From NCBI GenBank assembly GCA_028691315.1, contig JAQUZN010000003.1, forward strand, positions 1 through 64,000: a stretch of DNA of 64,000 nt, read 5' to 3'. Source of the stretch: Candidatus Izemoplasmatales bacterium (GTDB lineage: Bacteria > Bacillota_I > Bacilli_A > Izemoplasmatales > Hujiaoplasmataceae). The position numbers and the translations under genes were made by a program. A model generated the notes under the pieces. That model worked only from the letters and a program-made list of their open reading frames with translations. It made no database searches and was not told the origin of the DNA. Position 1 is the stretch's first letter. Every line of letters starts with the position of its first letter. Shown piece by piece: positions 2,152 through 44,004 of this stretch.

Positions 2152-2194
2152 AAAAAAGCTAAGATTCATAATCAAATGAACTTAGCTTTTTTTT
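2152..2194. terminator. Bidirectional rho-independent terminator
   Basis: An inverted repeat AAAAAAGCTAAG (2152-2163) pairs with CTTAGCTTTTTT (2181-2192), with a 17-base loop and T-runs on both strands. It lies immediately past the phoR stop codon and ends the pst-pho transcript. Confidence 0.85.
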
Positions 2195-3890
2195 AATATT
2201 CTAATGGAAATGTAATCGTGATTTTTGTGCCCTTACCCTCTGTGCTATCAAGTTCAATTTGACCTTGATAAATCATCACTATGTGTTTAACAATGGATAA
2301 CCCAAGACCAGTTCCACCCGTTTTTTTGCTTCTTGCTTTATCAACACGATAAAATCGTTCAAAAACACGTGTTTGATCTGACTTAGGAATACCAATTCCA
2401 TTATCTTCTACAGAGAAAATAATTTTATGTTCTGTTTGTTGAAGAGAAACCTTTAAGTTCCCTCCATCGTTTCCATACTGAATACTGTTTTCAAAAAGAT
2501 TTCGGATTAGCTGAACCATATGCTCATGACTTGCGTACATTGTCACCTTTTGAATAGACTCAATCCAAGTAATGTGCTTTTGTGTCATTGCAGGCAAAAT
2601 CATATTTTTAACTTCACTAATGACTTCTTGAAGCAATACTTTTTCTTCCGTCCTAGATATTACTTGATTTTCATACTTAGAAAGATTTAACATATCCATA
2701 ACTAAATGATTCATTCTTGTGGATTCTTCAAGGATTCTATTCGCTAAATCCTTAATTGTGGCAGTATCTTGAACTATCCCCGAGGAAATAAGTTCTGATG
2801 AACCCATAATCGAAGTAAGCGGAGACTTCAACTCATGCGAGGCATTCACAAAAAAGTCTCGTTTTAAAGTCTCAATGTTTTTAACCATTGTCACATCGGT
2901 AAAAATCAAAACAACGCTTGGCAATTGGTTCCAATTTTTTTCAAGAAATGAAATCATAACCGAGAAAAAGTCGTTATTTATTTCTAGTAAGGTTGAAGTA
3001 TTTACATTCGATTGATAGGCGTTTTGAATGGCCTCTTGAATGGATTTATCTCTAAATAAGTAATGATAGTCTTTATGTAAATTCGCATCTTCATTGAAAT
3101 GAAAGAGTTGTCTTAAAAAATGGTTAACAAGAACAATTTTGCCTTCTTGGTCTAAAACACAAATACCTTGATTCATATGGTTTAACAAAAAACCTGATTT
3201 TTGTTTTTCTTCATTCAAAGAAACAATGTTATAGGATATCAATTTTGAAATATCATTGATTTCATTAATGATACCATTGATTTCTTCGAATTTATCGAGC
3301 GGCATAATTTCTTTATATTCCCCATTGGCAACATCATTTAGTGTAACTTTTAAATCCTTTAATGGTTTTAAAGTATTCTTTGTTAATTGCATTATAAGCA
3401 ATATAGAAAGAAAAGAAATAAATGCCCCAACGGCAATCGATAACCCAATAAAGTCGTTTAAGAAAGGTAAAATACTGTTTAAGGGTATCGCAACGCGCAA
3501 ATATAAATCATCATTTAACTCTGTCGCTAAATACATCATTTTCCGGTTTAAAGAATCTGATACCCTAATATAAGCCGTCCCGAGATTTTGAAACTCAGGT
3601 CTTAAAAGATGATTTCCCAGTTCTGTTGCTAAAGAATCCGCTAACACAACGCCAGATGAATCCATAAAAGTAATTCTTAAGAAATCACTTGAATCTTGAT
3701 ATTTAACTACAATCTCAGTAGGTGATAATCCTTCATCAATATCTGTTGAAACCATTGATAAATACTGATTAAGATTCAATTCTGTTACTTTATTAAAATT
3801 ATTTTGTACAATCAAAGAAGACCCAATGATAAAGGTAAGAATTGCCAAGGCAATGACAAGAGCAAACTGATATGATATACGACGTTTCAT
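2193..3890 (-). CDS. phoR: Phosphate-sensing histidine kinase PhoR
   Basis: 565 residues: TM1 (about 8-30), an extracytoplasmic sensor of about 110 residues, TM2 (about 145-168), a HAMP linker, a PAS domain (about 230-330), then HisKA with FVNASHELKSPLTS (phospho-accepting His) and HATPase_c with N-box NLFENSIQYG, DNGIGIP and GTGLGLSIV. This is the classical PhoR layout of Gram-positive bacteria. It should phosphorylate the response regulator encoded just upstream, whose stop overlaps this ATG by 4 bases. As the last gene of the pst-pho operon it is followed by a strong terminator. The assignment to phosphate sensing rests mainly on the operon context. Confidence 0.92.
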   Translation of the reverse strand: MKRRISYQFALVIALAILTFIIGSSLIVQNNFNKVTELNLNQYLSMVSTDIDEGLSPTEIVVKYQDSSDFLRITFMDSSGVVLADSLATELGNHLLRPEFQNLGTAYIRVSDSLNRKMMYLATELNDDLYLRVAIPLNSILPFLNDFIGLSIAVGAFISFLSILLIMQLTKNTLKPLKDLKVTLNDVANGEYKEIMPLDKFEEINGIINEINDISKLISYNIVSLNEEKQKSGFLLNHMNQGICVLDQEGKIVLVNHFLRQLFHFNEDANLHKDYHYLFRDKSIQEAIQNAYQSNVNTSTLLEINNDFFSVMISFLEKNWNQLPSVVLIFTDVTMVKNIETLKRDFFVNASHELKSPLTSIMGSSELISSGIVQDTATIKDLANRILEESTRMNHLVMDMLNLSKYENQVISRTEEKVLLQEVISEVKNMILPAMTQKHITWIESIQKVTMYASHEHMVQLIRNLFENSIQYGNDGGNLKVSLQQTEHKIIFSVEDNGIGIPKSDQTRVFERFYRVDKARSKKTGGTGLGLSIVKHIVMIYQGQIELDSTEGKGTKITITFPLEY

Positions 3891-4570
3891 AAGACAAACT
3901 TGTAACCCACACCTCTTACGGTCTGGATTGCTTCAATATCAATTCCGGCTTGTACTAGTTTCATTCTCACTTCTTTTATATGAACATCTAAAGTCCTTGT
4001 TTCCCCAAAGAAATCATAACCCCATACAATATTAAGAATCTCATCTCTAGTCACAATTTTATGATGATTTTGCATCAATAATTTTAATAACTGAAATTCT
4101 TTGGATGTGAACGTGACTTTTTGATCAAGATATGTACAAACATATTCTTTAGGATCCAGTTTTAATCCTTTTATCTCTAAGATTTCACTAGAATCACTAT
4201 CCTTAGTTCTTCTTAGTAGCGCTTTAACCCTACTAACAAGTTCTAATACCCCAAATGGTTTACCAAGATAATCATCTGCTCCTAAATCAAGTCCAATAAC
4301 TTTATCAATTTCTGTTCCTTTTGCGCTAATAAACATTGTTGGTATTTGCGACCATTTTGGAGTGGCCTTTATCCTTTTGATAATCGACAACCCATCCATA
4401 TCCGGTAACATGATGTCAAGTAAAATTAAACTTGGAACCTTTTCTTCTAAAGCAGAAAAAAACGATTTCGCTTCGCTAAAGATAAAAACTTCATATCCAG
4501 AATTTTTTAACGCGATTTGAATAACATTTTGAATATTCAAATCATCTTCTACTGAATAAATAAGGGGCAT
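3887..4570 (-). CDS. phoB: Phosphate-regulon response regulator PhoB/PhoP
   Basis: 227 residues. The N-terminal receiver domain has the acidic pocket E8-D9-D10, the phospho-acceptor D52 in LILLDIMLPDMDG and the conserved Lys in GKPFG. A C-terminal OmpR/PhoB winged-helix domain carries FTSKEFQLLKLL and RTLDVHIKEVRMKL, ending in TVRGVGYKF. It sits between phoU and phoR in the pst-pho operon and has a strong AAGGAGG ribosome site. Its likely targets are the TTTAC(A/G) direct repeats at 9323-9350 upstream of pstS, which would make the operon autoregulated. Confidence 0.93.
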   Translation of the reverse strand: MPLIYSVEDDLNIQNVIQIALKNSGYEVFIFSEAKSFFSALEEKVPSLILLDIMLPDMDGLSIIKRIKATPKWSQIPTMFISAKGTEIDKVIGLDLGADDYLGKPFGVLELVSRVKALLRRTKDSDSSEILEIKGLKLDPKEYVCTYLDQKVTFTSKEFQLLKLLMQNHHKIVTRDEILNIVWGYDFFGETRTLDVHIKEVRMKLVQAGIDIEAIQTVRGVGYKFVL

Positions 4571-4582: not shown

Positions 4583-5245
4583 TTAGAACGTTAAGTTTTT
4601 CTTGTGTTCGCCTGTAATTGAAAAAATAACCCATTCACCAATATTAACAGCGTGATCGCCGATTCTTTCTAAATACTTTGCCACCATCATTAAGTATAAT
4701 GCATAATCTGCATCAATTGATGAAGAACGAATTGCTTTTGCGACAATTTGTTTAACTTCATCAAAATACATATCAACTTCATCATCGTCTTTGATAACTT
4801 CGTATGCAAGAGAAATATCATTCCCAACAAAAGAATCAAGTGATTTCTTAATCATTTTTTGACAAGCTTTTGTCATCAAATTCATTTGTGGTAAAGGAAA
4901 TACATTATGCGTTTTTTCCATAAAAATCGTCATTTTAGAAATATCTGCCGCATGATCTCCGATTCTTTCTAAATCTGTAATCATTTTTAAAACTGCAGTA
5001 ATTAGGCGTAGGTCTTTTGCGACAGGTTGTTCTCTTAGTATAATTCTCATACATTCTTTTTCAATAGCGTATTCTTGATCATTGACTAGTTTATCATTTT
5101 TTATAATTTCTTCTGCTAAAACAATATCTAAATTCAAAAACGAGCGAAATCCTTCATTGATGTTATCAATGACCATATCACCCATTTGGATTAAACTTAA
5201 TTTTAATGATTCTAATTCTTTATCAAATTGATTCCGGTATGTCAT
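4583..5245 (-). CDS. phoU: Phosphate transport regulator PhoU
   Basis: 220 residues, the normal length for PhoU. It is all-helical with two homologous halves, each carrying the metal-binding type signature: LRLITAVLKMITDLERIGDHAADI in the first (shown only in part by ITDLERIGDHA) and VAKYLERIGDHAVNI in the second. PhoU is a cytoplasmic modulator that links the Pst transporter to PhoR and restrains phosphate uptake and Pho signalling. It lies between pstB and phoB. The 51-base gap from pstB holds a possible internal promoter. Confidence 0.95.
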   Translation of the reverse strand: MTYRNQFDKELESLKLSLIQMGDMVIDNINEGFRSFLNLDIVLAEEIIKNDKLVNDQEYAIEKECMRIILREQPVAKDLRLITAVLKMITDLERIGDHAADISKMTIFMEKTHNVFPLPQMNLMTKACQKMIKKSLDSFVGNDISLAYEVIKDDDEVDMYFDEVKQIVAKAIRSSSIDADYALYLMMVAKYLERIGDHAVNIGEWVIFSITGEHKKNLTF

Positions 5246-5263
5246 CAGTTTGCCTCCTTAATC

Positions 5264-5292
5264 ATTATAATATGAAATCTATGTAAATACAA
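5264..5292 (-). promoter_or_regulatory. Possible internal promoter for phoU-phoB-phoR
   Basis: In the pstB-phoU gap the minus strand reads TTGTAT, 17 bp, TATAAT (-10 at 5264-5269). A single TTTACA (plus-strand TGTAAA at 5282-5287), like the Pho-box unit upstream of pstS, lies inside. It could give basal expression of the regulators independently of the pst promoter. Confidence 0.4.
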
Positions 5293-5296
5293 ACAA

Positions 5297-6061
5297 TTAC
5301 CCAAATCTCCCGGTAATATAATCTTCGGTCTTCTTTTCCTTGGGATCGCCAAAAATAACATCGGTCTTATCAAATTCTACTAAATATCCCATTAGAAAGA
5401 ATGCGGTATTGTCAGATATACGAGCTGCTTGTTGCATATTATGAGTAACAATAATAATCGTATACTCTTTTTTTAAATCTTGAATTAATTCTTCGATTTT
5501 AGCGGTTGCAATGGGATCTAATGCCGAAGTTGGTTCATCCATTAAAATCACATCTGGAGACATCGCAATCGTTCTAGCGATACAAAGGCGTTGTTGCTGA
5601 CCGCCAGAAAGTCCATAAGCACTTTCTTTTAGTCTGTCTTTGACTTCATCATATAAAGCAGAATTAATAAGCGCTCTTTTGACAATTTCTTGAAGTTGTT
5701 TTTTGTCTTTAACACCCTGGCATCTTGGTCCGTAAGCAACATTATCAAAAATACTCATTGGAAATGGATTGGGTTTTTGAAAAACCATCCCTACTTTAGT
5801 TCGTAAATTAATCGCATCATAGACTTTATTATAGATGTCTTGATCTTCGTATTTAACAAGACCATCCATTTTACAGTTATCAATCAAATCGTTCATCCGG
5901 TTTAAGCTTCGAAGAAGTGTTGATTTTCCACATCCAGATGGACCTATTAAAGCTGTTACTTGATTTTTTGGCACTTGCATATCAATATCAAAAAGCGCTT
6001 GTTTGTTGCCATAAAATAGATTTAATTTTTCGATTTCAAACACATTATTAGCTTGTTCCAT
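5297..6061 (-). CDS. pstB: Phosphate ABC transporter ATPase PstB
   Basis: 254 residues, typical for PstB. Walker [11 protein letters not shown]-loop [14 protein letters not shown] (the PstB-specific KPNPFPMSI run), signature [16 protein letters not shown], Walker [14 protein letters not shown] and switch His in [10 protein letters not shown]. It hydrolyses ATP on the cytoplasmic face to drive phosphate import through PstC/PstA. The start has GGAGGT located inside the end of pstA, and the intergenic gap is 2 bases, so it is tightly coupled. Confidence 0.97.
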
Positions 6062-6063
6062 TA

Positions 6064-7272
6064 TTAGTTACCTCCACTAAAAGAAAGTTTCTTCGCTATA
6101 AATTTAACAATAAAATTTAAGATAAATACAACCGCCAAAATGATGATTGAAATCGAACTTGCGAGTTCAAAGTTTGGAGTTTCACCTGCCATGATACTCC
6201 ATATATGAACCGCAAGTGACGTCGAACGCTCAGTTAAGATAATTTTATCTTTTATTGCGGTTCCTACCGCATATATTAACGCTGCCGACTCCCCAATAAT
6301 CCGGCCAATACTTAACAATACTGAAGATAAAATTCCTGGTATCGCAAATTTCAAAACAACTTTGAATGTTGTTTGTGTTTTTGTGGCACCAAGGGCAAGT
6401 GAAGCTTGTCTAAAATCGTCTGGAATCACTTTTAATGCTTCTTCTGTTGAGGTGATAATTACTGGTAGCACAATAACCGCAAGTGTCAGGGCTCCAGAAA
6501 ATAAGTTTCCACCATCTGCAGATGTTATTGTTGATGTAAATGGGATAAAAACAGCGGCTCCTAACAACCCAAAAATAATTGAAGGAACACCTGTTAGCAT
6601 TTCGATTAACCGTCTTAGTGCTTCAGCTAACTTAGATTTTTTAGGTGCATATTCATGTAAGTAAATTGCCGTAAATACACCAATTGGTAATGCTATAACT
6701 AAAGTCATTACAATCAAGTATAGCGTTGTAATCACCGAACCGCGAATCCCTTTTCCTGAAGTTGATGTAAGAAGATCAATAATACCATCTGCCTTGTCAA
6801 ACATGAGTGCGGCATTTTCAGCACCTTCAGAACTATATAAAATCGTTCTATTAGAAAAGATTACTTTGACTAGAGTTTGATCTTCAGATATATTTTGAAA
6901 CACGCCTTCAACATTTTTATCTGGAAGATTCTTAAATGGTGAATCTGAATCAACATAATTAATTAAGATATATACTTTTCCTTCATTATCAAAAGCATCC
7001 GTTAATCCAATTCCCCAGTTGCTAGAAAAATAGGTATTTTCATCAAGCGATTCAGGCCTTTCAAATGATGCATTAGATAACGTGCCATCATAATATGTAT
7101 TATAAGTGGTTGAATAGTAATCGCTAGTTAGTAAGTCCCAAGACAATAGTCCTGACCCTTTTTGAAATACATATCCAAAAATAGCAATTAAGATAAACAG
7201 CCCGAATAGTGAAACAAAGGATATAAGAGATTGAATAACAATATCTTTTCTCTTTCTTTTGCTTGTTTTCAT
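6064..7272 (-). CDS. pstA: Phosphate ABC transporter permease PstA with an extracytoplasmic insertion
   Basis: 402 residues, about 100 longer than typical PstA. TM1 (about 15-37) is followed by an extra soluble segment of roughly residues 42-165, rich in Tyr, Ser and Asn, predicted to lie outside the membrane. The regular permease core follows: five further TMs and the EAA loop with [25 protein letters not shown]. It forms the phosphate channel with PstC. Its stop overlaps nothing, but its start overlaps the end of pstC by 4 bases. The insertion could contact the unusual PstS encoded in the same operon; that is inference. Confidence 0.93.
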
Positions 7273-8210
7273 GAGAATCTACCTACTTTCTTTTTTAAAT
7301 AATTCAAAAATAGGTTTGTCACAATAATTAATATAATCAAAATCATTCCTACAGAAAAACGAATATCATAATCCAGTCCAACTGTCTCTTTTAACCCTAG
7401 CAACATAGTAGAAGTTAACGTTCTCGTTGTTGAAAATAAATCAAATGATAATCCAGATCCTGAGTTGCCCGCTACCATACTTACTGCAGTTGCTTCACCT
7501 AAAGCGCGACCAATACCTAAAATAATTCCTGCAAATATTCCTGATTTAGCTGAAACTAAAGTAATCTTAAAAAAAGTTTGAACCTTGCTTGCACCTAAAG
7601 CTAATGAGTTTTTCTCTAAATCTGGATTTACGGACTTAATAGCAGTAATCGATAATAAGGTGATTGTCGGTAAAATCATCATCGCTAAAACAAAGACAGT
7701 CGACAATGTTGAAATTCCCCCCGCTGTTTGTTTCCCAAATATACTAGATATCCATATGACAATCTTTGTAACTACACCAAGTCCAAATACACCAAATACA
7801 ATCGAAGGAACACTCGCTAATAACTCAATGACGGTTTGAAAAAACTTGGAAACTGGTTTTGGTGTCATTTTCGCAATAAAAAGAGCTGTAAACACAGAAA
7901 TAGGAATTGCAATAAGTCCAGCTAATATTACAACATATAGAGTATTTACAACCACAAAGAAAATACCATATAAATTAGGTGGTTGAAACCAAGTCATACC
8001 TGTCATGAATCTTAAAAAATTGACATGAAGATCGCCGTATATAGACGCAAGAAAAGGGGAAACTCCCCTTTTCGAGATAAATATTATAATTAAAAAAACA
8101 AATGAAGCGCTTAGGAAAGTGGGAATAAGGAGGAGAACATATGTTAATTTATCAACATTGTTATTGTGCTTATTTGTTTTTTGTTTTACTTCATTTAATC
8201 GATTAGTCAT
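7269..8210 (-). CDS. pstC: Phosphate ABC transporter permease PstC
   Basis: 313 residues with six TMs and the cytoplasmic EAA loop NSLALGASKVQTFFKITLVSAKSGI. Periplasm-type features of PstC follow TM1, including the short GVSPFLASIYGD segment. The ATG at 8210 is chosen over the upstream TTG at 8216 because AAGGAG stands 8 bases before it. Together with PstA it forms the transmembrane path for phosphate. A stable hairpin separates it from pstS upstream. Confidence 0.95.
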   Translation of the reverse strand: MTNRLNEVKQKTNKHNNNVDKLTYVLLLIPTFLSASFVFLIIIFISKRGVSPFLASIYGDLHVNFLRFMTGMTWFQPPNLYGIFFVVVNTLYVVILAGLIAIPISVFTALFIAKMTPKPVSKFFQTVIELLASVPSIVFGVFGLGVVTKIVIWISSIFGKQTAGGISTLSTVFVLAMMILPTITLLSITAIKSVNPDLEKNSLALGASKVQTFFKITLVSAKSGIFAGIILGIGRALGEATAVSMVAGNSGSGLSFDLFSTTRTLTSTMLLGLKETVGLDYDIRFSVGMILIILIIVTNLFLNYLKKKVGRFS

Positions 8211-8237
8211 TCGCAAAACTCCTTAGGGAAGTAAGCT

Positions 8238-8278: not shown

Positions 8279-9253
8279 TTATCCTAACTGGCTCCAAATT
8301 GTGGTTTCTCCACCAAAGATTTTCTTTAAATCTGAAGCTGTTAAATTTGATAATAATGGGTTATTTGCGTTAACCACTACTACAACTGCATCTAAACAAA
8401 TTCTACCTGTAGTGCCTTCAGCAGCAGCTTCAGATGATTTAAAATCACGTGATGCAAATCCAATATGAAGTTTATTTGCGCCCATTGATTCTGTACCTTG
8501 AACTCGAAGGTATGCATCACCAGATCCTGTATGATTATGTTCTGCAATGAAGTTTCCACATTTTGTGCTAAATTCTGCCGATAACGCTTTAGCAATTGAC
8601 TCAACTGAAGTCGAACCACCAAAGTTAATCGTTACTGCTGAATTATCTAATGAGCATACTTCATAATTTGATTTTATTTCATCCCATAATTTATCAGTAG
8701 TACTTGTTTCTAAAATACCGTGCTTATTACTGATTGTGGCTTTTCCATCAACTGTAGACATATATGCTACAAATGCGTTAACAATTTGATGTTCAGTTTC
8801 CATTCCGGTCCAGTCTAAGCGAACCATATAGTTGAATGGACGTTGCAATCCGTATGTTCCATTTAAAACATTTGCTTTTGATGCAACAACACCCTCAAAG
8901 TTTAGTCCGATAAGTGTTGTGTCAGATAGTGATGCTAGTGAAATATATCCAATTCCAAATACATCGTTCGTTACACTTGTAATCATTGAACCATTTCCAT
9001 CGACTTCTACGTAAGAAGATACTAATACTGTATTATCTCCTGTAGCTTCGTCAAAACCGATTCCTTTAAAAAACGCTTCTCTTGTTCCTGATGTTGTGTC
9101 TCTAGTATAAACTGTAATATTTTTTGTTTGGTCAAAAGATGCTGCTGTTGAAGTGGTAGTTGTAGTTGCCGTGGTAGTCGTAGTGTCATTCGAACAAGCA
9201 ACAACACCAAGCATTACAAAAATTAAACTAAATGTTACTAATATTTTTTTCAT
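8279..9253 (-). CDS. pstS: Phosphate-binding lipoprotein PstS, apparently circularly permuted
   Basis: 324 residues. Signal peptide with lipobox LGVVAC (Cys20), then a Thr-rich linker (about 24-37). The mature part starts with NITVYTRDTTSGTREAFF (TSGTRE at 54-59), the phosphate-binding motif that normally lies in the second half of PstS, and runs through YGLQRPFN (134-141) and NKHGIL, which normally ends the protein. Only then comes VTINFGGSTSVESIAKALS (GGSTS 212-216), TGSGDA (242-247) and IGFASRDFK, the usual N-terminal half. The chain ends at KIFGGETTIWSQLG, the usual mid-protein junction. Both halves are complete, so this looks like a circular permutation. ATG at 9253 has AAAGGAG; an upstream start at 9280 is less likely. 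Confidence 0.9.
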   Translation of the reverse strand: MKKILVTFSLIFVMLGVVACSNDTTTTTATTTTTSTAASFDQTKNITVYTRDTTSGTREAFFKGIGFDEATGDNTVLVSSYVEVDGNGSMITSVTNDVFGIGYISLASLSDTTLIGLNFEGVVASKANVLNGTYGLQRPFNYMVRLDWTGMETEHQIVNAFVAYMSTVDGKATISNKHGILETSTTDKLWDEIKSNYEVCSLDNSAVTINFGGSTSVESIAKALSAEFSTKCGNFIAEHNHTGSGDAYLRVQGTESMGANKLHIGFASRDFKSSEAAAEGTTGRICLDAVVVVVNANNPLLSNLTASDLKKIFGGETTIWSQLG

Positions 9254-9400: not shown

Positions 9401-10273
9401 ATGTCTTCAATATATGATAATTTAATCGAAGAATTAACAAAATATGACAAACTCTACGAAAATGTCAGAATCGTAAATCCAAAAACAAAAAAGGTCCTCT
9501 TTTATAAAGAAGACACTTGGGTTAATGAACCTCTGCCTTGTCATGCGATTTGGGATGTTAAAACGCCTTGCAAAAATTGTACTTCAATTCGGGCGATTCA
9601 AAGTAATGAAACTGTCGTTAAAATCCAATACACAAATAACAAGGTTTATATGGTTACTTCCATTCCAAGCAAGATTAAAGGCGTTGAAGTTGTTATCGAA
9701 TTGTTAAAAGATGCTACAAATAGCATGGACATAATCGATGATAGAATCAATGAACTTAGAAAAATTATCGATAAAACAAATGAGATGACAATAACAGATA
9801 GTTTAACAAATATCTTCAACAGAAAATACATCAATGAACGCATGCCTTTTGAAATCAACCAACTATCCACTCAAAAAGATTCTACTTTTTTAGTAATGGG
9901 TGATATCGATGACTTTAAAATTGTTAATGATACCTTTGGCCACGTCGCTGGAGATGAAGTTTTAAAAAAAATAGCTAAAATATTGTCTAAAAACATTCGT
10001 TCTAATGACTGGGTAGCTAGGTATGGTGGAGAAGAATTTTTGATGTGCTTAACAGAAATCACTTTAAAAGAAGCCACAAAAATTACTGAAAATATCCGAC
10101 AAATAATTGAAAATCATAATTTTACTCTAAACAAAAAAATAGTTCATGTAACTTGTAGTTTTGGCTTGTCTGAGATTGCTTCTAAAGATACTACTGAATC
10201 AATAATAAAAAGAGCGGATCTTAACTTATATAAAGCAAAAGATGCTGGTAAAAATAAGGTAGTTTACTCGTAA
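9401..10273 (+). CDS. Diguanylate cyclase with an N-terminal Cys-containing sensor domain
   Basis: 290 residues. The N-terminal part (about 1-105) looks like a PAS-type fold and has C47, C57 and C60 in a PCHAIW...PCKNC pattern that could bind a metal or respond to redox. A short coiled coil (about 108-130) leads to a GGDEF domain (131-290) with the intact active site GGEEF (209-213) and an RxxD inhibitory site (RSND 200-203) five residues before it. It should make cyclic di-GMP with product feedback. It has no membrane segment. It is divergent from pstS with Pho boxes between, and is one of few left-arm genes facing the replication fork. Confidence 0.9.
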   Translation: MSSIYDNLIEELTKYDKLYENVRIVNPKTKKVLFYKEDTWVNEPLPCHAIWDVKTPCKNCTSIRAIQSNETVVKIQYTNNKVYMVTSIPSKIKGVEVVIELLKDATNSMDIIDDRINELRKIIDKTNEMTITDSLTNIFNRKYINERMPFEINQLSTQKDSTFLVMGDIDDFKIVNDTFGHVAGDEVLKKIAKILSKNIRSNDWVARYGGEEFLMCLTEITLKEATKITENIRQIIENHNFTLNKKIVHVTCSFGLSEIASKDTTESIIKRADLNLYKAKDAGKNKVVYS

Positions 10274-10634: not shown

Positions 10635-11456
10635 TCATTCTAAAAAAGCGATAAATTTAAGAATAAGTAATGATACTTTATCCATCGCTTCTAGAGATGT
10701 TTTTAGTACTTCATCATGAGATAATTTATTCATTGAAATTCCTGTAGCCATATTCGTAATGACTGACAACCCCAATACTTGCATTCCCGCATGGCTTGCG
10801 ACAATAACTTCAGGTACCGTAGACATTCCTACAACATCTCCTCCTAATTGTCTATAAGCTAAAATTTCACTTCTCGTTTCATAACTTGGTCCAAAATAAC
10901 CAACATAAACACCTTTTTTTAGATGAATTTCATAACTCTTGGCGATTTCTTCTATTTTCTCAATCCATAGAAGCGAATAAGGTTCTGACATATCTGAAAA
11001 CCTTGGTCCAATAATATCCACATTGTCTCCAATTAAAGGATTTCTACCCATCATATTGATATGATCTTCAATAATCATGATATCGCCAGGTTTAAATGAT
11101 GGGTTCATTCCACCACATGCGTTTGTAATGATTAAGTTATTTACACCCAAATACTTAAACATTTGTATTGGATAACGCATTTCTTCATCGGTTAACCCTT
11201 GATAATAATGATTTCTTCCTTTCATTATGTATACAGGATGTTGGCCAATCAAGCCAATTACCAATTCGCCAGATTGACCTTCAATTGATTTTTGGACAAA
11301 AAAAGGAATATCTGAGTAGGATACAATAACCGGATTTTTTACAAACTTGGCAAAATCTCCAAGACCAGAGCCTAAAATAATCAAGGTCTTTGGACGAAGT
11401 ATAGACAGACCTTCAATGAATATTTTTGACTGACAAAATTCATCAATAATGCTCAT
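10635..11456 (-). CDS. punA: Purine-nucleoside phosphorylase
   Basis: 273 residues of the trimeric PNP (NP-II) family. Visible motifs: LIILGSGLGDFA (phosphate-binding loop), MKGRNHYYQG, ITNACGGMNP, GPSYETRSEI and the purine-binding VGMSTVPEVI followed by TNMATG. It cleaves purine nucleosides such as guanosine and inosine to base and ribose-1-phosphate in salvage. The ATG overlaps the stop of the surface-protein gene by one base, and purB and folD lie upstream in the same direction, forming a purine/one-carbon cluster. Confidence 0.95.
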   Translation of the reverse strand: MSIIDEFCQSKIFIEGLSILRPKTLIILGSGLGDFAKFVKNPVIVSYSDIPFFVQKSIEGQSGELVIGLIGQHPVYIMKGRNHYYQGLTDEEMRYPIQMFKYLGVNNLIITNACGGMNPSFKPGDIMIIEDHINMMGRNPLIGDNVDIIGPRFSDMSEPYSLLWIEKIEEIAKSYEIHLKKGVYVGYFGPSYETRSEILAYRQLGGDVVGMSTVPEVIVASHAGMQVLGLSVITNMATGISMNKLSHDEVLKTSLEAMDKVSLLILKFIAFLE

Positions 11457-13609
11457 TATTTCACCTTTTTTCTAGAATGAAAACTCTTTTTAACAAAAGC
11501 AAGACTATTCGGCTTAAAATACATTAACATGACAGCCAATCCAACGCTAACAACTGGAAGTAAGATAGTTAACACAAGCGTTAATGTTGAAACTTTAGCT
11601 TTTACTAAAAATTGAATGGTTTCAATCGTTCCATCAGTCAAAGTAACGTTAACTGAAGCTTCTCCATAAGCCAACCCTATTACATTCCCAAATTCATCCA
11701 CTACTAAAATATCTGAATCAGAAGAATGATAACTATAGATAGTCGTTTTTCCGAGCGTAATATACTGATCTACATTCAAAGAGTCTACTTGCGCTTTAAT
11801 AACAACGACAGATAGTTTTGCATGTAATAAATCATATGCTAAGTTTAAATTAGCAATCGTTTCACTAACCTTTTCTTGTGAAGCATTAGCATCATTTATG
11901 ATAACAAGAGCATCATGCAAATTAACTTCTAAATTCCTGTAACTTGTTGCGGTGTAATTAATCGGATTTAAAAGAAGAAGGGTATCGCGCTTCGCGATAA
12001 GCAATGATTTATCCGCTTCATATACAAGTAAGTCTGTAGCCGAAGCTAAATCAATAACTACTTGATCATAAACTAATTGCGAAAGTTCCTTCCCGTTAAT
12101 AATGTCATCTAATCTCTTCATTTCTGCATTAAAAAGAATGACTGAGTTTGGAGTATATAACTCGTATTGAATATTCGAATTATAAAGAAAAATGTTTTTT
12201 AAGTCACTATTATCTACTATTTCAACTAAGAGCGACAAAGCATGATTAACTTTATCTGTTAAGATATCTACATCTGATTGTAAAGCATTATCATTATTCA
12301 AAATGTTATTCACATATAAATATGTACCATAATCCAAAGTCTCAGTCTTAAATGCTTGGTATGAAGAAGCCGTATAGTTTCCCTTTTCTTCATAATATGC
12401 AACGATTGATTTGTTGTTTGCTATTTCTAAGTTTGACTTATCTGCCTTTAAAACAAGAAGATCAAACGCCGATAAATAGTCATCTTCTAATTGATTAATA
12501 ATTATCTCCGTTGCGTTTTCACTAACCATTAATAAATAAATTCTAGAAATTTCATTGTTAAATATTGCAACAGAAGATGGTGTGTATAGCTCATAATTAA
12601 AACTTGATAATTCATCAATTTGTATTTGAAGATTGGTATGATCCCCCTTTAAAACAAGCGAGCCATATAATCCGTCAATCCTTACAATCGCATCATCGAC
12701 ATCTTGTTGAAGAGTTTCGTCATCATTAATAATATTTAAAATAGAACTTAGTTCTACGTTAAAAAAAGTTTTAGAATCAAGCGTGTATAAAGATAAATCA
12801 TACTTAACTGCATCGTTATATTTGCTTGATAAAACTGATTTATCTGGCATTAAAATTAAAAGTCCTAAAGCTTGACTAATTTTAGTATATGTTTTTTCAA
12901 CTTCAATAACAGATGCATCATCATAAAGTAGAATATCTTCTAATGTAAAACCAATATCCGGTAATAACGACTGATTAATTGTTTGATAAGCATTTATAAA
13001 AAGAAGGTAAGTTGAAGGTACATATAATAAGTGATTAGCAATAACTGCTTGGGCAAAATCATAATTGCTTTGTAACTCGGTTTTATCGCCTAAAAAAACG
13101 AGCACATTACTTGAATCGGTAATGTCTACACTTAGATTAGAAATAATTATTTCGCCGCTTGTTGGTTCGTCTATTACTTCTTTAATTCTGTCTAACTCTT
13201 CATTAAATGCAACAATGGACCGTTGTGTATATTCTCCTAATAACTTGGTTTTTTGTGAAAGATATTGTAGAAGAATTTCATTGTAAGTCGAATCTGTGAC
13301 TAAACCGCTTAACATTGAAATACACACAGCTGTCATTTGATCTACATCTGATTGCAAAACTGACGTATTTGCAATCATTTGATCAATGGCATCTAAACCA
13401 CCAATATTTGATAGTGAAACTAAAAACGCATTATAAGAATTTTCTTCATATTTGTTTTTTAGTTGATCAGAGATTGCTTGATTAATATTATTTCTTTCTA
13501 CAATCAGTGCGGTTTTATTTGATTCAGCATGAACTTGAACAGAAACAAAAAAGAGGCTAAATAGTACTAGCGCTACAAATTGTATGCAAATTTTTCCTAA
13601 TCTGCTCAT
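11456..13609 (-). CDS. FIVAR-repeat surface protein with Big_2 domain and C-terminal membrane anchor
   Basis: 717 residues. Signal peptide 1-28 ending VHAES. Residues about 30-600 hold at least six repeats of about 95 residues recognisable by Y-T-x-x-S-x-x-x-F-N-x-E (for example YTPSSVAIFNNEI and YTPNSVILFNAEM), matching FIVAR-type repeats of cell-surface proteins. Residues about 605-672 look like a bacterial Ig-like (Big_2) domain with ITLGKTTIYSYHSSDSDI. One TM (about 675-697) and a basic tail anchor it. It is probably a cell-surface stalk or adhesin. It lies, oddly, between purB and punA with gaps of 15 and -1 bases. Function of the ectodomain is unknown. Confidence 0.82.
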   Translation of the reverse strand: MSRLGKICIQFVALVLFSLFFVSVQVHAESNKTALIVERNNINQAISDQLKNKYEENSYNAFLVSLSNIGGLDAIDQMIANTSVLQSDVDQMTAVCISMLSGLVTDSTYNEILLQYLSQKTKLLGEYTQRSIVAFNEELDRIKEVIDEPTSGEIIISNLSVDITDSSNVLVFLGDKTELQSNYDFAQAVIANHLLYVPSTYLLFINAYQTINQSLLPDIGFTLEDILLYDDASVIEVEKTYTKISQALGLLILMPDKSVLSSKYNDAVKYDLSLYTLDSKTFFNVELSSILNIINDDETLQQDVDDAIVRIDGLYGSLVLKGDHTNLQIQIDELSSFNYELYTPSSVAIFNNEISRIYLLMVSENATEIIINQLEDDYLSAFDLLVLKADKSNLEIANNKSIVAYYEEKGNYTASSYQAFKTETLDYGTYLYVNNILNNDNALQSDVDILTDKVNHALSLLVEIVDNSDLKNIFLYNSNIQYELYTPNSVILFNAEMKRLDDIINGKELSQLVYDQVVIDLASATDLLVYEADKSLLIAKRDTLLLLNPINYTATSYRNLEVNLHDALVIINDANASQEKVSETIANLNLAYDLLHAKLSVVVIKAQVDSLNVDQYITLGKTTIYSYHSSDSDILVVDEFGNVIGLAYGEASVNVTLTDGTIETIQFLVKAKVSTLTLVLTILLPVVSVGLAVMLMYFKPNSLAFVKKSFHSRKKVK

Positions 13610-19579: not shown

Positions 19580-20674
19580 ATGAATACATTTGGCCAGACA
19601 TTAAAAATGACATTATTTGGGGAATCTCATGGAGAGGCCTTAGGAATTGTTATTGATGGAATTAAACCTGGATTAGTTATTGATTATGCTAATCTTAACG
19701 CCCTGTTAACAAAAAGAAGACCAAAAACCATTTATTCCACTTCTAGAAGCGAGCCTGATGATTACGAAATTATCTCAGGCGTTTTTGAAGGAAAAACAAC
19801 AGGCGCTCCAATTACTTTTTTAATTCGTAATCAAAATACGATTTCAAAAGATTATGACAGCCTTCGGTACACACCAAGACCTTCCCACGCTGATTATCCT
19901 GCATATGTGAAATATCAAGGTTTTAATGATCCAAGAGGTGGAGGTATCTTCTCTGGTAGATTAACTTCCTTAATGATGATTGCTGGTGCTTTATCAAAAC
20001 AAATACTAAACGAAAAAAATATTTTCATTGGATCGCATATTTTAAGCATCCAAAATACAATAGATGATTCTTTTAATCTAACTGCTGTTTCCAAAGAAAC
20101 AATTCAAAAACTAGAATCACTTGATTTTCCTGTTTTAAATAATGCAATTGAAGAATCCATGAAAAAAGTCATAATATCTGCTAAAGAAGATGAAAATTCT
20201 GTCGGTGGAATTATCGAGTCCGCAATTATCAATCTTCCATGCGGATTAGGGGAACCCTTGGCTTTATCTCTAGAGAGCCATCTTTCGTCCTTGTTGTTTA
20301 GTGTTCCTTCAATTAAAGGCGTAGAATTTGGACTCGGTTTTGACATTACTCGTAAAACCGGAAAAGAAGCAAACGATGAATACACCATCGAAAATGGTAA
20401 AATTAGAACTTTAACAAACAATAACGGTGGAATTTTAGGCGGAATAACAACGGGGATGCCTGTAATTTTACGTGTAGCTGTAAAGCCAACACCATCAATT
20501 GGAAAAGCACAATCAAGTGTTAACTTACTAAAAAATGAAGCTCAAACACTAGAAATTAAAGGCAGACATGATCCGGCAATTGTAAATAGAGTCGTTCATG
20601 TCATAAATGCAATTCTTTATTTTGGTATTTTAGATTATATTCTTACTTCTACTAACAAAGATTGGATGAAATAA
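19580..20674 (+). CDS. aroC: Chorismate synthase
   Basis: 364 residues from ATG at 19580, which has AAGGAGGTG right before it (an ORF extending to 19535 lacks this). The N-terminus MTLFGESHGEALG, the central RPSHADYPAYVKYQ-type run, DPRGGGIFSGR and the C-terminal GRHDPAIVNR are chorismate synthase signatures for FMN and EPSP binding. It produces chorismate from EPSP and needs reduced FMN. Coupled upstream to aroB and downstream to the aroE-aroK fusion. Confidence 0.96.
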   Translation: MNTFGQTLKMTLFGESHGEALGIVIDGIKPGLVIDYANLNALLTKRRPKTIYSTSRSEPDDYEIISGVFEGKTTGAPITFLIRNQNTISKDYDSLRYTPRPSHADYPAYVKYQGFNDPRGGGIFSGRLTSLMMIAGALSKQILNEKNIFIGSHILSIQNTIDDSFNLTAVSKETIQKLESLDFPVLNNAIEESMKKVIISAKEDENSVGGIIESAIINLPCGLGEPLALSLESHLSSLLFSVPSIKGVEFGLGFDITRKTGKEANDEYTIENGKIRTLTNNNGGILGGITTGMPVILRVAVKPTPSIGKAQSSVNLLKNEAQTLEIKGRHDPAIVNRVVHVINAILYFGILDYILTSTNKDWMK

Positions 20675-20676
20675 TA

Positions 20677-21927
20677 ATGTATGGATTACTAGGAGCTTCG
20701 TTAAAGCACAGCTTTTCCAAAGAAATTCATCAAAACTTTGGAATCCAAAATTACTCATTATTTGAAACAGACAACTTAAAGGATTTTTTTAAAAATATCC
20801 CGTTTTTAGGTGTGAATGTAACAATTCCTTATAAAGAATCCGTCATTCCATTTTTAGATATTCTAGATGATTCAGCAAAAAGAATTGGCTGTGTCAACAC
20901 AATCGTTCGTCGTAACAAACAATTGATTGGGTACAACACAGATTACTATGGACTTAAAAGTTTGCTAATTTTTCATCATATATCAATTGAAAACAAAAAA
21001 GTGTTAATCATTGGTAACGGTGGGGCCGCAAAAACATGTAATGTCCTGTTTCACGACTTAGACGCAAGGATTGTAACTAAAATCTGCCGCAATCCCAAAG
21101 AAGATTTCGAGATTCCTTTCAAATTAATTGACACAGTTGTTGATTATGATATAATCGTAAATACTACACCAATTGGTATGTACCCCAATAATGATGATAA
21201 TATGTTGTTTGATTTAGGTTTATTTTCAAACTGCAAAACAGTAATTGACTTGATATATAATCCTATTCAAACAAAATTGCTCCTTGAAGCAAAATCAAGA
21301 AATATTCAAGCAGTAAATGGTTTATACATGCTTGTCATGCAAGCAAAAAAAAGTGATGAACTATTTCTGCTTAAAGAAATTTCTATTCCTTTTGCGAACA
21401 AGGTATATGAATCAATAAAATTACAAATGATAAATATTGTTTTTATCGGATTACCACTAAGTGGAAAATCAAAATATGCAAGATTAATTGCTCAAAAATA
21501 TGAAAAAGATTTAATAGATACAGATGAATCAATTGAAACATTAACCAATAAAAAAATTTCTGAAATTTTTGAAGGTGAAGGCGAAAAAGCATTTCGAATT
21601 CACGAAAATGATTATGTTGATGCTATCTATAAATCTCATGGAGTGGTCATATCTACCGGTGGTGGAATGGTTTTAAATCATGAACTAATGATGAAATTAA
21701 AGCAAAACGGTTATTTCATTTATTTAGATAAAGATCCAATAAAAATTGCAGAACTTTCAATTCATAATCGCCCACTTATTAAACAATCAAAGGATATTAT
21801 CCAGTTGGATTTAGTGAGACGCCCGCTATATAAAAAATATCAAGACACAATCATTGAAATATCAAAAGATACAGATTTTCATATTCGAGAAATAGAGGCC
21901 AAATTGAATGAATATATTAGTCATTAA
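20677..21927 (+). CDS. aroE/aroK: Fused shikimate dehydrogenase - shikimate kinase (AroE-AroK)
   Basis: 416 residues covering two successive steps. Residues 1-250 are AroE: GASLKHSFSKEIH, VTIPYKE (K53), GCVNT (N74), GYNTD (D89) and the NADP loop GNGGAAKT. Residues 252-416 are AroK: Walker A GLPLSGKS (258-265), DTD (281-283), GEKAFR (R307), STGGGMVL and NRPLI (R365). The frame is continuous, with no stop, ribosome site or spacer at the junction, so it is a true fusion. It would convert 3-dehydroshikimate to shikimate and then shikimate-3-phosphate. ATG at 20677 fits the AroE N-terminus; a TTG at 20662 would add five residues. Confidence 0.94.
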   Translation: MYGLLGASLKHSFSKEIHQNFGIQNYSLFETDNLKDFFKNIPFLGVNVTIPYKESVIPFLDILDDSAKRIGCVNTIVRRNKQLIGYNTDYYGLKSLLIFHHISIENKKVLIIGNGGAAKTCNVLFHDLDARIVTKICRNPKEDFEIPFKLIDTVVDYDIIVNTTPIGMYPNNDDNMLFDLGLFSNCKTVIDLIYNPIQTKLLLEAKSRNIQAVNGLYMLVMQAKKSDELFLLKEISIPFANKVYESIKLQMINIVFIGLPLSGKSKYARLIAQKYEKDLIDTDESIETLTNKKISEIFEGEGEKAFRIHENDYVDAIYKSHGVVISTGGGMVLNHELMMKLKQNGYFIYLDKDPIKIAELSIHNRPLIKQSKDIIQLDLVRRPLYKKYQDTIIEISKDTDFHIREIEAKLNEYISH

Positions 21928-35068: not shown

Positions 35069-35098
35069 ATAAAACCGCTAAAATTAGCGGTTTTATTT
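35067..35098. terminator. Bidirectional terminator between pth and the GH13 gene
   Basis: AAATAAAACCGCTA (35067-35080) pairs with TAGCGGTTTTATTT (35085-35098) around a 4-base loop; it serves both converging genes. Confidence 0.9.
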
Positions 35099-36913
35099 AT
35101 TATATAGAATTTTAAATGAATACGGAATCAGTGTAACTTCTTTTCCTAATAATTGTTTTTTGTTTTCAAATAAGTCCAATACATTTTTTTTTCGAATAAC
35201 TGCAGGAACCTTTTCATCAACTGTATAATTATTATTATTTATAAAAACAGTCATATGGTCTTTTTGATATATTAAGACATTATTATCGGCTTTATGCCAA
35301 AATAATTCAACACTTGAAAAGTCAGGATATTCTTTTCTTAATTCAATCATTTTTTTAAAGAATGAATATAACGCTTTATCTTGTAGGGTGTCATTCCATA
35401 TCATACATCTTCTAGAGTCGGGGTCTTCTTTTCCTTCTAGACCAATTTCATCACCATAATAAATTGCCGGTGCACCAGGAAATGTAAAAATAAACAAGTA
35501 ACACAATTTAACAATTTCAGTGTTATTTTCAACTCTTGTTTTGATTCTCATTGTGTCGTGAGAATCAACTAGGTTAAACATATTTATCGATACCGTTTTT
35601 GGATATTGTAGTAATAGTTTATTAATTTTATACATGAAACTTGGTGCAGATAATTTTTGTGAAATCTTCTTAATTCCAAAAAATTGCCAAATTGGATATG
35701 CAATCTCATAATTCATTACAGCATCAAACTGATCTCCTCTTAACCATGGAGTTGAGTCATCCCAATTTTCACCTAAAATATAAACATCTTCTTTGATGCT
35801 TCTTACTCGTTCTTTAAACTTTCGCCAAAACGCATGACTTACTTCATTAGATACATCAAGTCTCCATCCATCGATGTCATATTTTTCTACCCAGTAAGCA
35901 GCTACATTTAGTAAATACTCTTCCATGATAGGGGCACTTGTGTTTAATTTTGGCATATGTGGAGTAAAACCAAAAGCACGATATTTTGGCTTCAAATTAT
36001 GATGTTTAGGCCTTCCATTTTCATCTAACTCAAAGTCAATAAAATCTTCATCTTCGATAAAAAAGCAATTCCAATATTTAGAGTTTTTCTTGTTTTTGAT
36101 TACATCTTGGAAGAATGGATGCTTAAAGCCACAATGGTTGAATACGGCATCGAGCATTACTTTAATCCCAGACGCATGACACGAATCTACTAGCAGTTTA
36201 AAATCATCATTTGTCCCAAAGGTTGGGTCTATTTGAAAATAGTCTTCCGTATCGTATTTATGTGCAGAATATGCCTTAAAGATTGGGGTAAAATAGATTC
36301 CTGTAATTCCTAATTCTTTTAGATAAGGAATTTTTTCTTTTACACCCAGTAAATCTCCACCAAAGAACATATGGTTTGATATGCCTTCTGTTACAGATCC
36401 AAAAGGAAGGAAGTTTCCTTGTCTGTTTTCACTTTTATTGAATCTCTCTGGAAAAATTTGGTACCAAATCATATTTTTAGACCATTTAGGTGAATCTATT
36501 AAATCTTCTTTATTTATGTATGGAAAGTTAAAATATCCAAATAAATCAAATAATATCGTTTCATCCTTAACCAAATCTATTTCCACTAAATTTCTGCACC
36601 CATAAAAATAGACATTAAGTTTGTCATAGATTAAAAATGCATATTTTGATCTTTTACTAGGAATGGTTACGTCAATTGTATAATAATCAAATAATTCTGT
36701 ATAATATGTTTTTCTCATCTCTTTATGAGGAAAAAGTTTTCCGCCCCAATGATAAACATTGTTTTCCATATACCATTCAAATGGATCTCCGATAATTAGT
36801 TTTACCATAGAAACATCATTTTTAGCTGTTTGTAATGTAATGGATAATGTATTTTCATCTAAAGCATATGCCATTTGGCTTTTTGGTAAGTGATTTATAG
36901 CTTCTAAAATCAT
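35093..36913 (-). CDS. Cytosolic neopullulanase/cyclomaltodextrinase-type alpha-glycosidase (GH13_20-like), copy 1
   Basis: 606 residues with no signal peptide. An N-terminal CBM34-like domain (about 1-125) leads to the GH13 barrel: MIWYQIFPERFN, GIYFTPIF, DAVFNHCG, GWRLDVSNEV (nucleophile Asp), YILGENWD (acid/base Glu) and LVDSHDT (third catalytic Asp). The MPKLN motif is the region V of the neopullulanase/cyclomaltodextrinase/maltogenic amylase subfamily. It should degrade imported maltodextrins or cyclodextrins in the cytosol. It lies on the minus strand, facing the replication fork, with its own promoter. Confidence 0.93.
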   Translation of the reverse strand: MILEAINHLPKSQMAYALDENTLSITLQTAKNDVSMVKLIIGDPFEWYMENNVYHWGGKLFPHKEMRKTYYTELFDYYTIDVTIPSKRSKYAFLIYDKLNVYFYGCRNLVEIDLVKDETILFDLFGYFNFPYINKEDLIDSPKWSKNMIWYQIFPERFNKSENRQGNFLPFGSVTEGISNHMFFGGDLLGVKEKIPYLKELGITGIYFTPIFKAYSAHKYDTEDYFQIDPTFGTNDDFKLLVDSCHASGIKVMLDAVFNHCGFKHPFFQDVIKNKKNSKYWNCFFIEDEDFIDFELDENGRPKHHNLKPKYRAFGFTPHMPKLNTSAPIMEEYLLNVAAYWVEKYDIDGWRLDVSNEVSHAFWRKFKERVRSIKEDVYILGENWDDSTPWLRGDQFDAVMNYEIAYPIWQFFGIKKISQKLSAPSFMYKINKLLLQYPKTVSINMFNLVDSHDTMRIKTRVENNTEIVKLCYLFIFTFPGAPAIYYGDEIGLEGKEDPDSRRCMIWNDTLQDKALYSFFKKMIELRKEYPDFSSVELFWHKADNNVLIYQKDHMTVFINNNNYTVDEKVPAVIRKKNVLDLFENKKQLLGKEVTLIPYSFKILYNK

Positions 36914-36944
36914 TCTTTTACTCCTTTAATATTCCGTTGTATAT

Positions 36945-36973
36945 ATTGTACTACGTTTTATTTCAATTATCAA
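36945..36973 (-). promoter_or_regulatory. Promoter of the copy 1 neopullulanase
   Basis: On the minus strand TTGATA (36973-36968), 17 bp, TACAAT (36950-36945), followed by AAGGAG before the ATG at 36913. Confidence 0.75.
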
Positions 36974-37031
36974 TCATTTAAATAAAAGAATGATACTGGA
37001 ATAGCTTACATCTTGTAATTCGTATATTTAT

Positions 37032-37061
37032 TTGGAGATAATGAAATATTTATTGTATAAT
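37032..37061 (+). promoter_or_regulatory. Promoter of the RDD-amylase-DUF1189 operon
   Basis: TTGGAG (37032-37037), 18 bp, TATAAT (37056-37061), about 50 bases before the TTG start of the RDD gene. Confidence 0.6.
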
Positions 37062-37111
37062 AGGGCAGTAACTGAAATTTCTATTATTTCATTAATCGAG
37101 GTGATCTACAT

Positions 37112-37606
37112 TTGAACAATTTTGAAAGAAGAATTCGCTCTTTTTCAATAGATATGTCATTTGCGACTATTTTATTTATATTGCTTGCGGTTTCATTTAA
37201 TACAATGGGAATTCAAGATAACCAATTAAAATTATTTTTATCCGCGACAATTGCATATTTTGGCGTACTCATTGTCCCTAATTTTTTTTCTAGAGGACAA
37301 TCATTTGGAAAAAGAACTCAAAAAATGAAAGTTGTATATAATGATTCTGAGAAGGTACCTTCCCTAATTATGTTAATTTTACGCGAAATTGTGAAAGGAC
37401 TTTTGTTGCTATCAACATTTGGATTCTACCTTGTCGTATGTGGAATTATGGTTAATTCTAGAAAAGATGGCAGAGGAATTCACGATTTAATATTTAAAAC
37501 AAAAGTCATTTGTATTACCAAATATGTTTCAGACAAAGAAGAAGGATATGTTTTAGGACAAGGCGAGTCAGTTAAAAAACATTTAGAGGGATCCTCTTAT
37601 GACTAA
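37112..37606 (+). CDS. RDD-family membrane protein
   Basis: 164 residues starting with TTG at 37112 (CGAGGTGAT site upstream). The N-terminal ERRIRSFSIDMSFATILF replaces the Arg-Asp-Asp signature of RDD proteins with R-S-I-D-M, a tolerated variant; FFSRGQSFGKRTQKMKVV and the C-terminal GRGIHDLIFKTKV are typical RDD features. Three to four TMs. Function is unknown in most species; some RDD proteins act in ion homeostasis. Its end overlaps the amylase gene by 8 bases. Confidence 0.85.
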   Translation: MNNFERRIRSFSIDMSFATILFILLAVSFNTMGIQDNQLKLFLSATIAYFGVLIVPNFFSRGQSFGKRTQKMKVVYNDSEKVPSLIMLILREIVKGLLLLSTFGFYLVVCGIMVNSRKDGRGIHDLIFKTKVICITKYVSDKEEGYVLGQGESVKKHLEGSSYD

Positions 37607-39200: not shown

Positions 39201-40032
39201 ACTATTTGTTGGTGGATTTACACCTAGAGGTATATTTTCACAAAGGGATGTCTCTTTAAAAAAAGTTATTTTATATTTTATTTTTCTTGTTTTTGTTATT
39301 TCTTTTCCGTTAAACCTTCAAATTACACAATCTGGAGGCTGGGATTTATATAATTTTACAGCGGGAATTCAATCAAATAATCCGAGCTGGTTGCCATCAC
39401 AATTGCCAGATGATATTGAGATTAGTAGCGCTGGAATGACATTCACAAGCATCGAAGTCTCCACTTTTCAAACAACGAATGTAAATGATGAGATTTTGTA
39501 CATTGTATTTGCGCCTAGTACGTATTATGTTTATACTACATCTTTGGTATTTGAAGAACATTCGATTGTTTATTACAACGAGTTAGGGAATAAAGTGTTT
39601 AGTGTTGGATATAACAATATCAAAACACCAGTATATTTCAGCAATTTGAAATTAATGACAGATTCTGAAGCAATCGATTCATTTACAAGAATGATTAATG
39701 AGGCATTTAGTCCATATGCAGTATTTAAATCGATTTTTTTATATACCATAATCACATTCATGATGAACATTGTATTAGTCGTTGTTCTTAGTGCTATTTT
39801 TATCTTTATCAGAGTGAGATATCAAAAAGTAACAACTTTCTCGCAAAACATTAGAATTATTATTGCTTCAATGACGATTCCAAGTATGGTTGGATTTGTA
39901 GTTGGAATTATAGGTCTTGTGGAATTTAACGCTTTTTCAGTTGTTATCTTTCAGTTTATGACGCCTTTAATTGCATTATTTTCTATTTTTAAAGGAGCAG
40001 GCATTAAGGAAATTAGTAATAAATATTCATAA
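39193..40032 (+). CDS. DUF1189-like membrane protein
   Basis: About 279 residues from ATG at 39193, which has AGGTGAT before it (a GTG at 39184 is possible). TM1 near residues 25-45 follows a short cytoplasmic start, then an extracytoplasmic part of about 130 residues, then three or four TMs (about 175-275). The pattern of one N-terminal TM, an outside domain, and a C-terminal TM bundle is that of DUF1189 proteins of Firmicutes. Function unknown. It is last in the RDD-amylase operon; a terminator follows. Confidence 0.72.
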   Translation: MLKLFVGGFTPRGIFSQRDVSLKKVILYFIFLVFVISFPLNLQITQSGGWDLYNFTAGIQSNNPSWLPSQLPDDIEISSAGMTFTSIEVSTFQTTNVNDEILYIVFAPSTYYVYTTSLVFEEHSIVYYNELGNKVFSVGYNNIKTPVYFSNLKLMTDSEAIDSFTRMINEAFSPYAVFKSIFLYTIITFMMNIVLVVVLSAIFIFIRVRYQKVTTFSQNIRIIIASMTIPSMVGFVVGIIGLVEFNAFSVVIFQFMTPLIALFSIFKGAGIKEISNKYS

Positions 40033-40048
40033 ATATAATGAAATTTAT

Positions 40049-40086
40049 AAAAAAAAGAGGAATATTTCAATTTTCTCTTTTTTTTA
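40049..40086 (+). terminator. Terminator after the DUF1189 gene
   Basis: AAAAAAAAGAG (40049-40059) pairs with CTCTTTTTTTT (40075 onward), with a T-run on the plus strand, about 16 bases after the stop. Confidence 0.75.
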
Positions 40087-40156
40087 ATGCCAATTTCTTA
40101 TTTTTATTCACTCGTGAGCATAATTAAGCATCATATTCTCCTCATTAAAAAGATAA

Positions 40157-40165
40157 TGGTATAAT
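40157..40165 (+). promoter_or_regulatory. Extended -10 promoter of the heliorhodopsin gene
   Basis: TGG-TATAAT, an extended -10 element 33 bases before the ATG. No good -35. AGGGGGA is the ribosome site. Together with terminators on both sides it makes the gene a single-gene transcription unit. Confidence 0.6.
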
Positions 40166-40198
40166 AAAAGTAGATTTAATATATTTAGGGGGATAAAC

Positions 40199-40990: not shown

Positions 40991-41011
40991 AACGTAAATT
41001 TTAAACATATT

Positions 41012-41042
41012 AAAAGAGGAATTTTTTGAATTCCTCTTTTTT
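41012..41042. terminator. Bidirectional terminator between heliorhodopsin and pullulanase genes
   Basis: AAAAGAGGAATT (41012-41023) pairs with AATTCCTCTTTT (41029-41040) around TTTTG; both genes converge here. Confidence 0.9.
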
Positions 41043-41060
41043 AAATATAAATATTTAACT

Positions 41061-43895: not shown

Positions 43896-43916
43896 ATTCT
43901 CCCTCCATTTGAAAGA

Positions 43917-43930: not shown

Positions 43931-43975
43931 TATATTATTTTAACACAAATTCATAGGTTTTCATATTCTTACGTA

Positions 43976-43989: not shown

Positions 43990-44004
43990 TTTTAATGAAA
44001 AACT

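Follow-up and report, generated by a model that had tools for sequence, protein, structure and literature searches.

A circularly permuted PstS heads the pst operon of an Izemoplasmatales bacterium and has relatives in many Bacillota-type genomes

The locus described here raises the question of whether a bacterial phosphate-binding protein, PstS, can carry its two halves in exchanged order, and if so, how this order arose and how far it has spread. The window, which is the whole stretch of DNA that was analysed, comprises 64,000 nucleotides of contig JAQUZN010000003.1 from Candidatus Izemoplasmatales bacterium (GenBank assembly GCA_028691315.1). In nature, it is uncommon for a whole binding protein to be circularly permuted. 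The first-pass annotation had proposed such a permutation for PstS from the order of its motifs, and the motif positions on which it relied are exact in the translation: TSGTRE (residues 54-59) and YGLQRPFN (134-141) precede GGSTS (212-216) and TGSGDA (242-247). Moreover, the chain does end with IWSQLG, and its folded part resumes with the second half, beginning with ITVYTRD at residue 46, past the lipobox Cys20 and the Thr-rich linker. The gene and its parts are as follows.

8279..9253, minus strand: pstS, circularly permuted phosphate-binding lipoprotein of 324 aa (translation, profiles, PDB matches, AlphaFold model)
9194..9253, minus strand: lipoprotein signal peptide, residues 1-20, lipobox GVVAC with Cys20 (sequence, Cys20 conservation, pLDDT < 50)
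9125..9193, minus strand: Thr-rich tether, residues 21-43 (sequence; disordered in the model)
8711..9124, minus strand: original C-terminal half, residues 44-181 (ITVYTRDTTSGTRE ... YGLQRPFN ... DGKATISNKHGI; TIGR02136 positions 161-291)
8639..8710, minus strand: new linker, residues 182-205, which connects the original C-terminus with the original N-terminus (absent from canonical PstS; length comparison between clades)
8282..8638, minus strand: original N-terminal half, residues 206-324 (FGGSTSVES ... TGSGDA ... FASRDF ... IWSQLG; TIGR02136 positions 35-157; PF12849)

The exchanged order was also found by profile and structure-database searches. The PstS profile TIGR02136 matched the protein far beyond chance (E 3e-31), but as two separate stretches whose order is exchanged: residues 43-179 correspond to profile positions 161-291 and the later residues to the first half of the profile. 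PF12849 scored 60.6 bits against a cut-off of 27, and according to both profiles the two halves are homologous to PstS. The canonical structures 4q8r, 4gd5 and 1twy aligned as two swapped pieces as well (E 1e-15 to 1e-19), whereas 4h1x aligned in a single collinear piece covering residues 44-323 (E 7e-17, PDB sequences). When a profile of permuted PstS proteins was compared with the PDB, 4h1x (profile E 2e-62) was again the only collinear PstS, the other best matches being split and swapped. As a control, the window PstS was rotated in silico at the proposed junction, with the second piece placed first, and searched again. The rotated protein gave single collinear matches with 4q8r, 4gd5 and 1twy at increased scores (for instance, from 73 to 88 bits for 4q8r), while the match with 4h1x broke into two. 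The score against TIGR02136 rose from 108.7 to 123.8 bits in one stretch (residues 6-259 to profile positions 40-291). Thus, the rotation test behaves as expected of a true circular permutation, and both halves are intact. Because the curated TIGR02136 cut-off of 206.6 bits is missed in either order, the sequence is, as judged from these scores, divergent besides being permuted; many PstS relatives in the Mycoplasmatota likewise score below this cut-off. Since only one half aligns at a time, permuted PstS proteins fall under family cut-offs, and annotation pipelines may miss or split them.

The structure prediction suggested in the first-pass annotation leads to the same result. An AlphaFold2 model built with 23 homologues has a mean pLDDT of 89.7 and exceeds 90 across most of the folded part, disorder being limited to the signal peptide (pLDDT < 50) and the Thr-rich tether. 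Using Foldseek, a structural search that respects chain order, the model was matched over its full length to 4h1x (E 1.8e-24, TM 0.82, 289 columns). Canonical 4q8r was matched only partly (TM 0.36, rmsd 10.7 A), and the match to canonical 4gd5 was limited to 91 columns at 2.4 A. No collinear full-length alignment to a canonical PstS emerged from the pairwise, profile-versus-PDB or Foldseek comparisons. Thus, by sequence and structure, the window PstS is a circular permutant of PstS of the 4h1x type, as had been proposed.

It could be argued that two pstS copies have been joined head to tail in the wrong order during assembly or binning, as the genome is a metagenome-type draft of 236 contigs. 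We regard the chance of such an artefact as negligible because no fewer than 46 further genomes of the phylum, some of them complete or from cultured strains, have the swapped order, as does the PDB entry 4h1x; in addition, the pst operon is intact. The search for homologues with the same order was productive across the phylum and beyond. Of 34 genomes belonging to the same family, 21 contain a full-length collinear homologue, and among the matches listed a single near-full-length collinear match occurs in 47 of 245 near-complete genomes of the phylum, the genome under study included. These homologues share 45-74% identity and come from many independent genomes; they include the single-contig chromosomes CP076020 and CP017948 as well as the cultured Acholeplasma granularum, A. 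oculi and Paracholeplasma vituli. The nearest named relatives belong to unclassified Bacilli and Candidatus Izemoplasmatales, and the named matches are biased to Mollicute-like Bacilli since the scan of genome contigs used a narrower alignment (A2). With TIGR02136 and half-specific profiles, distinct loci were sorted into 121 with a protein of the C-N order, 31 with a canonical N-C protein and six in which two or three C-N units are fused. The permuted order was also found in Monoglobus (Clostridia), in Treponema saccharophilum and on unassigned human-gut contigs. Permuted PstS is therefore widespread in Bacillota-type bacteria and not peculiar to the window gene. One genome (locus L083 of G084) has two separate adjacent pstS genes of family f14, both of which are permuted.

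Mobile elements were considered as a source of the permuted gene and dismissed. The plasmid matches are chromosome-like operons, and the five full-length matches in phage collections are unannotated, unverified gut contigs of 5-8 kb, so that no link to phages is claimed. A scan of IMG/VR with the permuted PstS gave one match, and a viral structure library contained nothing relevant to the PstS model.

The permuted gene heads a complete operon, pstS-pstC-pstA-pstB-phoU-phoB-phoR, all of which lies on the minus strand. The genes downstream of pstS and the divergent neighbour are listed below.

7269..8216, minus strand: pstC (TIGR02138, 203 bits, over cut-off)
6064..7272, minus strand: pstA, 402 aa (TIGR00974, 214 bits, over cut-off, residues 172-396 only)
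5297..6061, minus strand: pstB (TIGR00972, 424 bits, over cut-off)
4583..5245, minus strand: phoU (TIGR02135, 209 bits, over cut-off)
3887..4570, minus strand: PhoB-type response regulator (best model TIGR02154, 214 bits, under the cut-off of 296)
2193..3890, minus strand: PhoR/PnpS-type histidine kinase (best model NF046044 PnpS, 335 bits, under the cut-off of 400)
9401-10273, plus strand: diguanylate cyclase (GGDEF) with a Cys-rich N-terminal part (CHAIWDVKTPCKNC), divergent from the pst operon

Across an alignment of 23 diverse permuted PstS proteins, Cys20 is invariant, as are R51, S55, G56, R58, G213, S214, S216, S244 and S268, and the SGTR, GGSTS and SR motifs are conserved. From what is known of canonical PstS, we take the invariant residues from R51 to S268 to be ligand contacts. 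The permuted protein would adopt the usual two-lobed fold of type II binding proteins, close on phosphate via R51, S55-G56-T57, GGSTS 212-216, S244 and S268-R269 and pass it to PstCA. The Thr-rich tether is now attached to the lobe holding the original second half. The cut lies in the loop that separates the halves and the former ends are linked to each other, which is why the lipid anchor is expected on the lobe opposite to that used in canonical PstS. The role of the protein is probably ordinary, namely phosphate capture for PstCAB, given the operon, the invariant residues of the ligand-site type and the S. pneumoniae Pst2 system, which includes the 4h1x protein and whose phosphate uptake has been observed in vivo (PMC4913102). 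In S. pneumoniae, deletion of both pst1 and pst2 reduced 32Pi uptake by about half, and either system alone suffices at 1 mM phosphate (PMC4913102). It is very improbable that the window protein binds another ligand or has turned into a sensor without a role in transport. Such a change could be suspected from its divergence from the curated PstS model and from the adjoining diguanylate cyclase gene on the opposite strand, but a complete pstCAB-phoU-phoBR operon follows directly downstream, the SGTR, GGSTS and SR motifs have been retained and the closest permuted relative for which data exist is part of a phosphate transporter (PMC4913102). We are therefore highly confident that the gene encodes a working phosphate-binding lipoprotein of a Pst system with a circularly permuted chain, which would bind phosphate and deliver it to PstCA.

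The PstA protein of the operon contains an additional domain, which lies outside the coverage of the curated PstA models.

6745..7161, minus strand: residues 38-176 of PstA, an additional PDZ-like domain within its first extracytoplasmic loop (model, Foldseek, operon survey)

The insert, which comprises about 115-140 aa, has a confidently predicted fold (pLDDT 88.3), and nearly every one of its top Foldseek matches is a PDZ domain (E 0.04 upward, probability up to 1.00). Since Pfam gives one weak PDZ match among 40 members, PDZ-like is a statement at the level of the predicted fold. The insert was found in 91 of 91 window-type permuted operons and in neither the 11 canonical nor the eight Clostridia-type permuted operons, counting only PstA genes uncut by locus ends and including related genomes, which are not independent events. 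Thus, it tracks the operon lineage rather than the permutation as such. The idea that the PDZ-like domain binds the new C-terminus of PstS found no support, as most of these chains end in charged (E, K) instead of hydrophobic residues.

How might the permuted chain have arisen? In canonical PstS, the chain ends directly past a G-[YFL]-[IV] motif and the mature N-terminus often reads (L)SG-x-V-x-x-GSTS. In the permuted protein, a linker of about 24 residues connects the canonical C-terminus with the canonical mature N-terminus, and the new ends are located in the surface loop that separates the canonical halves, past W..LG and ahead of ITVYTRD. Linker length increases from the Clostridia/Streptococcus type, where it is short (...NAAYSGKKPSGKISVAGSSS), via family f14 to the Mycoplasmatota, which have the longest linkers (...DEIKSNYEVCSLDNSAVTINFGGSTS). 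The SG(K/N) residues of the linker appear to be left over from the mature N-terminus of canonical PstS. The likeliest route would be an in-frame tandem duplication of pstS, followed by loss of the outer halves and regain of a signal peptide. This route had been put forward in the first-pass annotation, and it is favoured in part by tandem-fused proteins that do exist: two-unit (C-N-C-N) chains of 593-664 aa and a three-unit (C-N-C-N-C-N) chain of 910 aa, in which the units are 80-97% identical. The fused proteins are single lipoproteins at the loci L048 (genome G164), L050, L051, L118 and L180, and a further C-N-C-N frame of 678 aa is indicated at G260:C5:39898-41772. The complete chromosome of Mycoplasmatota bacterium zrk7 (L182, about 5046-6900) has a two-unit fused gene with a frameshift in unit one, which makes the open frame start within this unit. 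Such sequences show that permuted pstS is commonly duplicated in tandem and in frame, and the fused forms illustrate the mechanism. However, they do not prove the origin because they duplicate an already permuted unit, and the survey with TIGR02136 and half-specific profiles uncovered no N-C-N-C intermediate. As the inner N-to-C junction of the fused proteins has the canonical order, fused chains could convert either way.

Whether all permuted PstS proteins, i.e. those of the Mycoplasmatota type, the Turicibacter-size family f14, Clostridia, Treponema and S. pneumoniae, descend from one event is a matter on which the evidence is divided, and a single origin appears to us somewhat short of an even bet. 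It would explain why the breakpoint is identical in all of them, and approximately unbiased (AU) tests do not reject a single permuted clade including 4h1x (p 0.198 for PstS, 0.139 for PstC and 0.23 for both). The linkers of two permuted clades also resemble each other overall (0/300 shuffles), but this similarity lies mostly in the SGK/SGN stretch, which is present in canonical N-termini too, and over the first 12 linker residues the similarity does not exceed that of column-permuted controls (128/500). A common linker was therefore discarded as proof of one origin. We give about the same weight to two or more origins at the same loop, one in the Clostridia/Streptococcus lineage and another in the lineage of the window with its PDZ-bearing PstA. 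All best trees of rotated PstS, of PstC and of both concatenated place the permuted proteins in two blocks with canonical proteins in between, and at most 1% of the bootstrap trees keep them together. Moreover, the two blocks carry different types of PstA, with the insert restricted to one of them, and their linkers differ in length and sequence. Against separate origins stand the non-significant AU tests and the sampling, with few Clostridia sequences and 4h1x as the only representative of the Lactobacillales. A more elaborate scenario, in which at least two permutations occurred at the same loop, the window lineage became locked to the Pst subtype with the PDZ-like PstA and later in-frame duplication gave rise to chains of two and three units, is rather unlikely as a whole. 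If it holds, permuted PstS and PDZ-like PstA would define a distinct Pst subtype with the tether on the other lobe.

Among characterised proteins, the closest counterpart is PstS2 of S. pneumoniae (SP_2084, PDB 4h1x, released in 2012), which has the same swapped order and, like the window protein, is the lipoprotein of a Pst operon. The two proteins share about 25% identity in the structural alignment, and the linker of PstS2 is shorter. S. pneumoniae also has a canonical PstS1 (4exl, which matches as two swapped pieces), whereas no second PstS was detected in the genome of the window, a draft with 90% completeness and 8% contamination. The canonical proteins of the TIGR02136 type (4q8r and 4gd5 of Clostridium perfringens) are homologous in both halves and alike in ligand-site motifs and operon role, but differ in the order of the halves, the termini and the position of the lipid anchor, and they lack the extra linker. 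Past 4h1x, the next Foldseek matches are to chains of Bacillus subtilis OpuAC (2b4l), which align without a change of order across about 300 columns. For OpuAC, a circular permutation relative to ProX-type binding proteins has been reported (PMC2395249). It binds glycine betaine, and the match (about 12% identity, TM 0.49, rmsd about 8) does not imply a shared family. TpMglB-2 of Treponema pallidum is likewise a natural circular permutation of a solute-binding lipoprotein; it keeps ligand binding, and its authors speculate that tethering is a possible cause (PMC4990184). However, TpMglB-2 has the type I (cluster B) sugar-binding fold and another breakpoint and stems from an unrelated event.

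In open-licence PMC full text, neither a description of a permuted PstS nor a statement that 4h1x or SP_2084 is permuted was found, and accounts may exist elsewhere. The permuted order has apparently remained undescribed although the structure has been in the PDB since 2012. New to us are the extent of the permutation, the tandem-fused forms and the PDZ-like insert in PstA. The permutation deserves attention because it is widespread in a textbook transporter.

Other genes of the window were seen in passing. A predicted surface protein of 717 aa (11456-13609, minus strand) has a signal peptide, a C-terminal membrane anchor and apparent repeated helical units, and it gave no Pfam match. Shikimate dehydrogenase (AroE) and shikimate kinase (AroK) appear to be fused in one gene at 20662-21927 (plus strand) within a shikimate-pathway cluster. 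Finally, judging by the translations of the open reading frames, a run of alpha-amylase/pullulanase-like genes extends from 35093 to 54090 together with a maltose-type ABC transporter, which suggests the use of starch.
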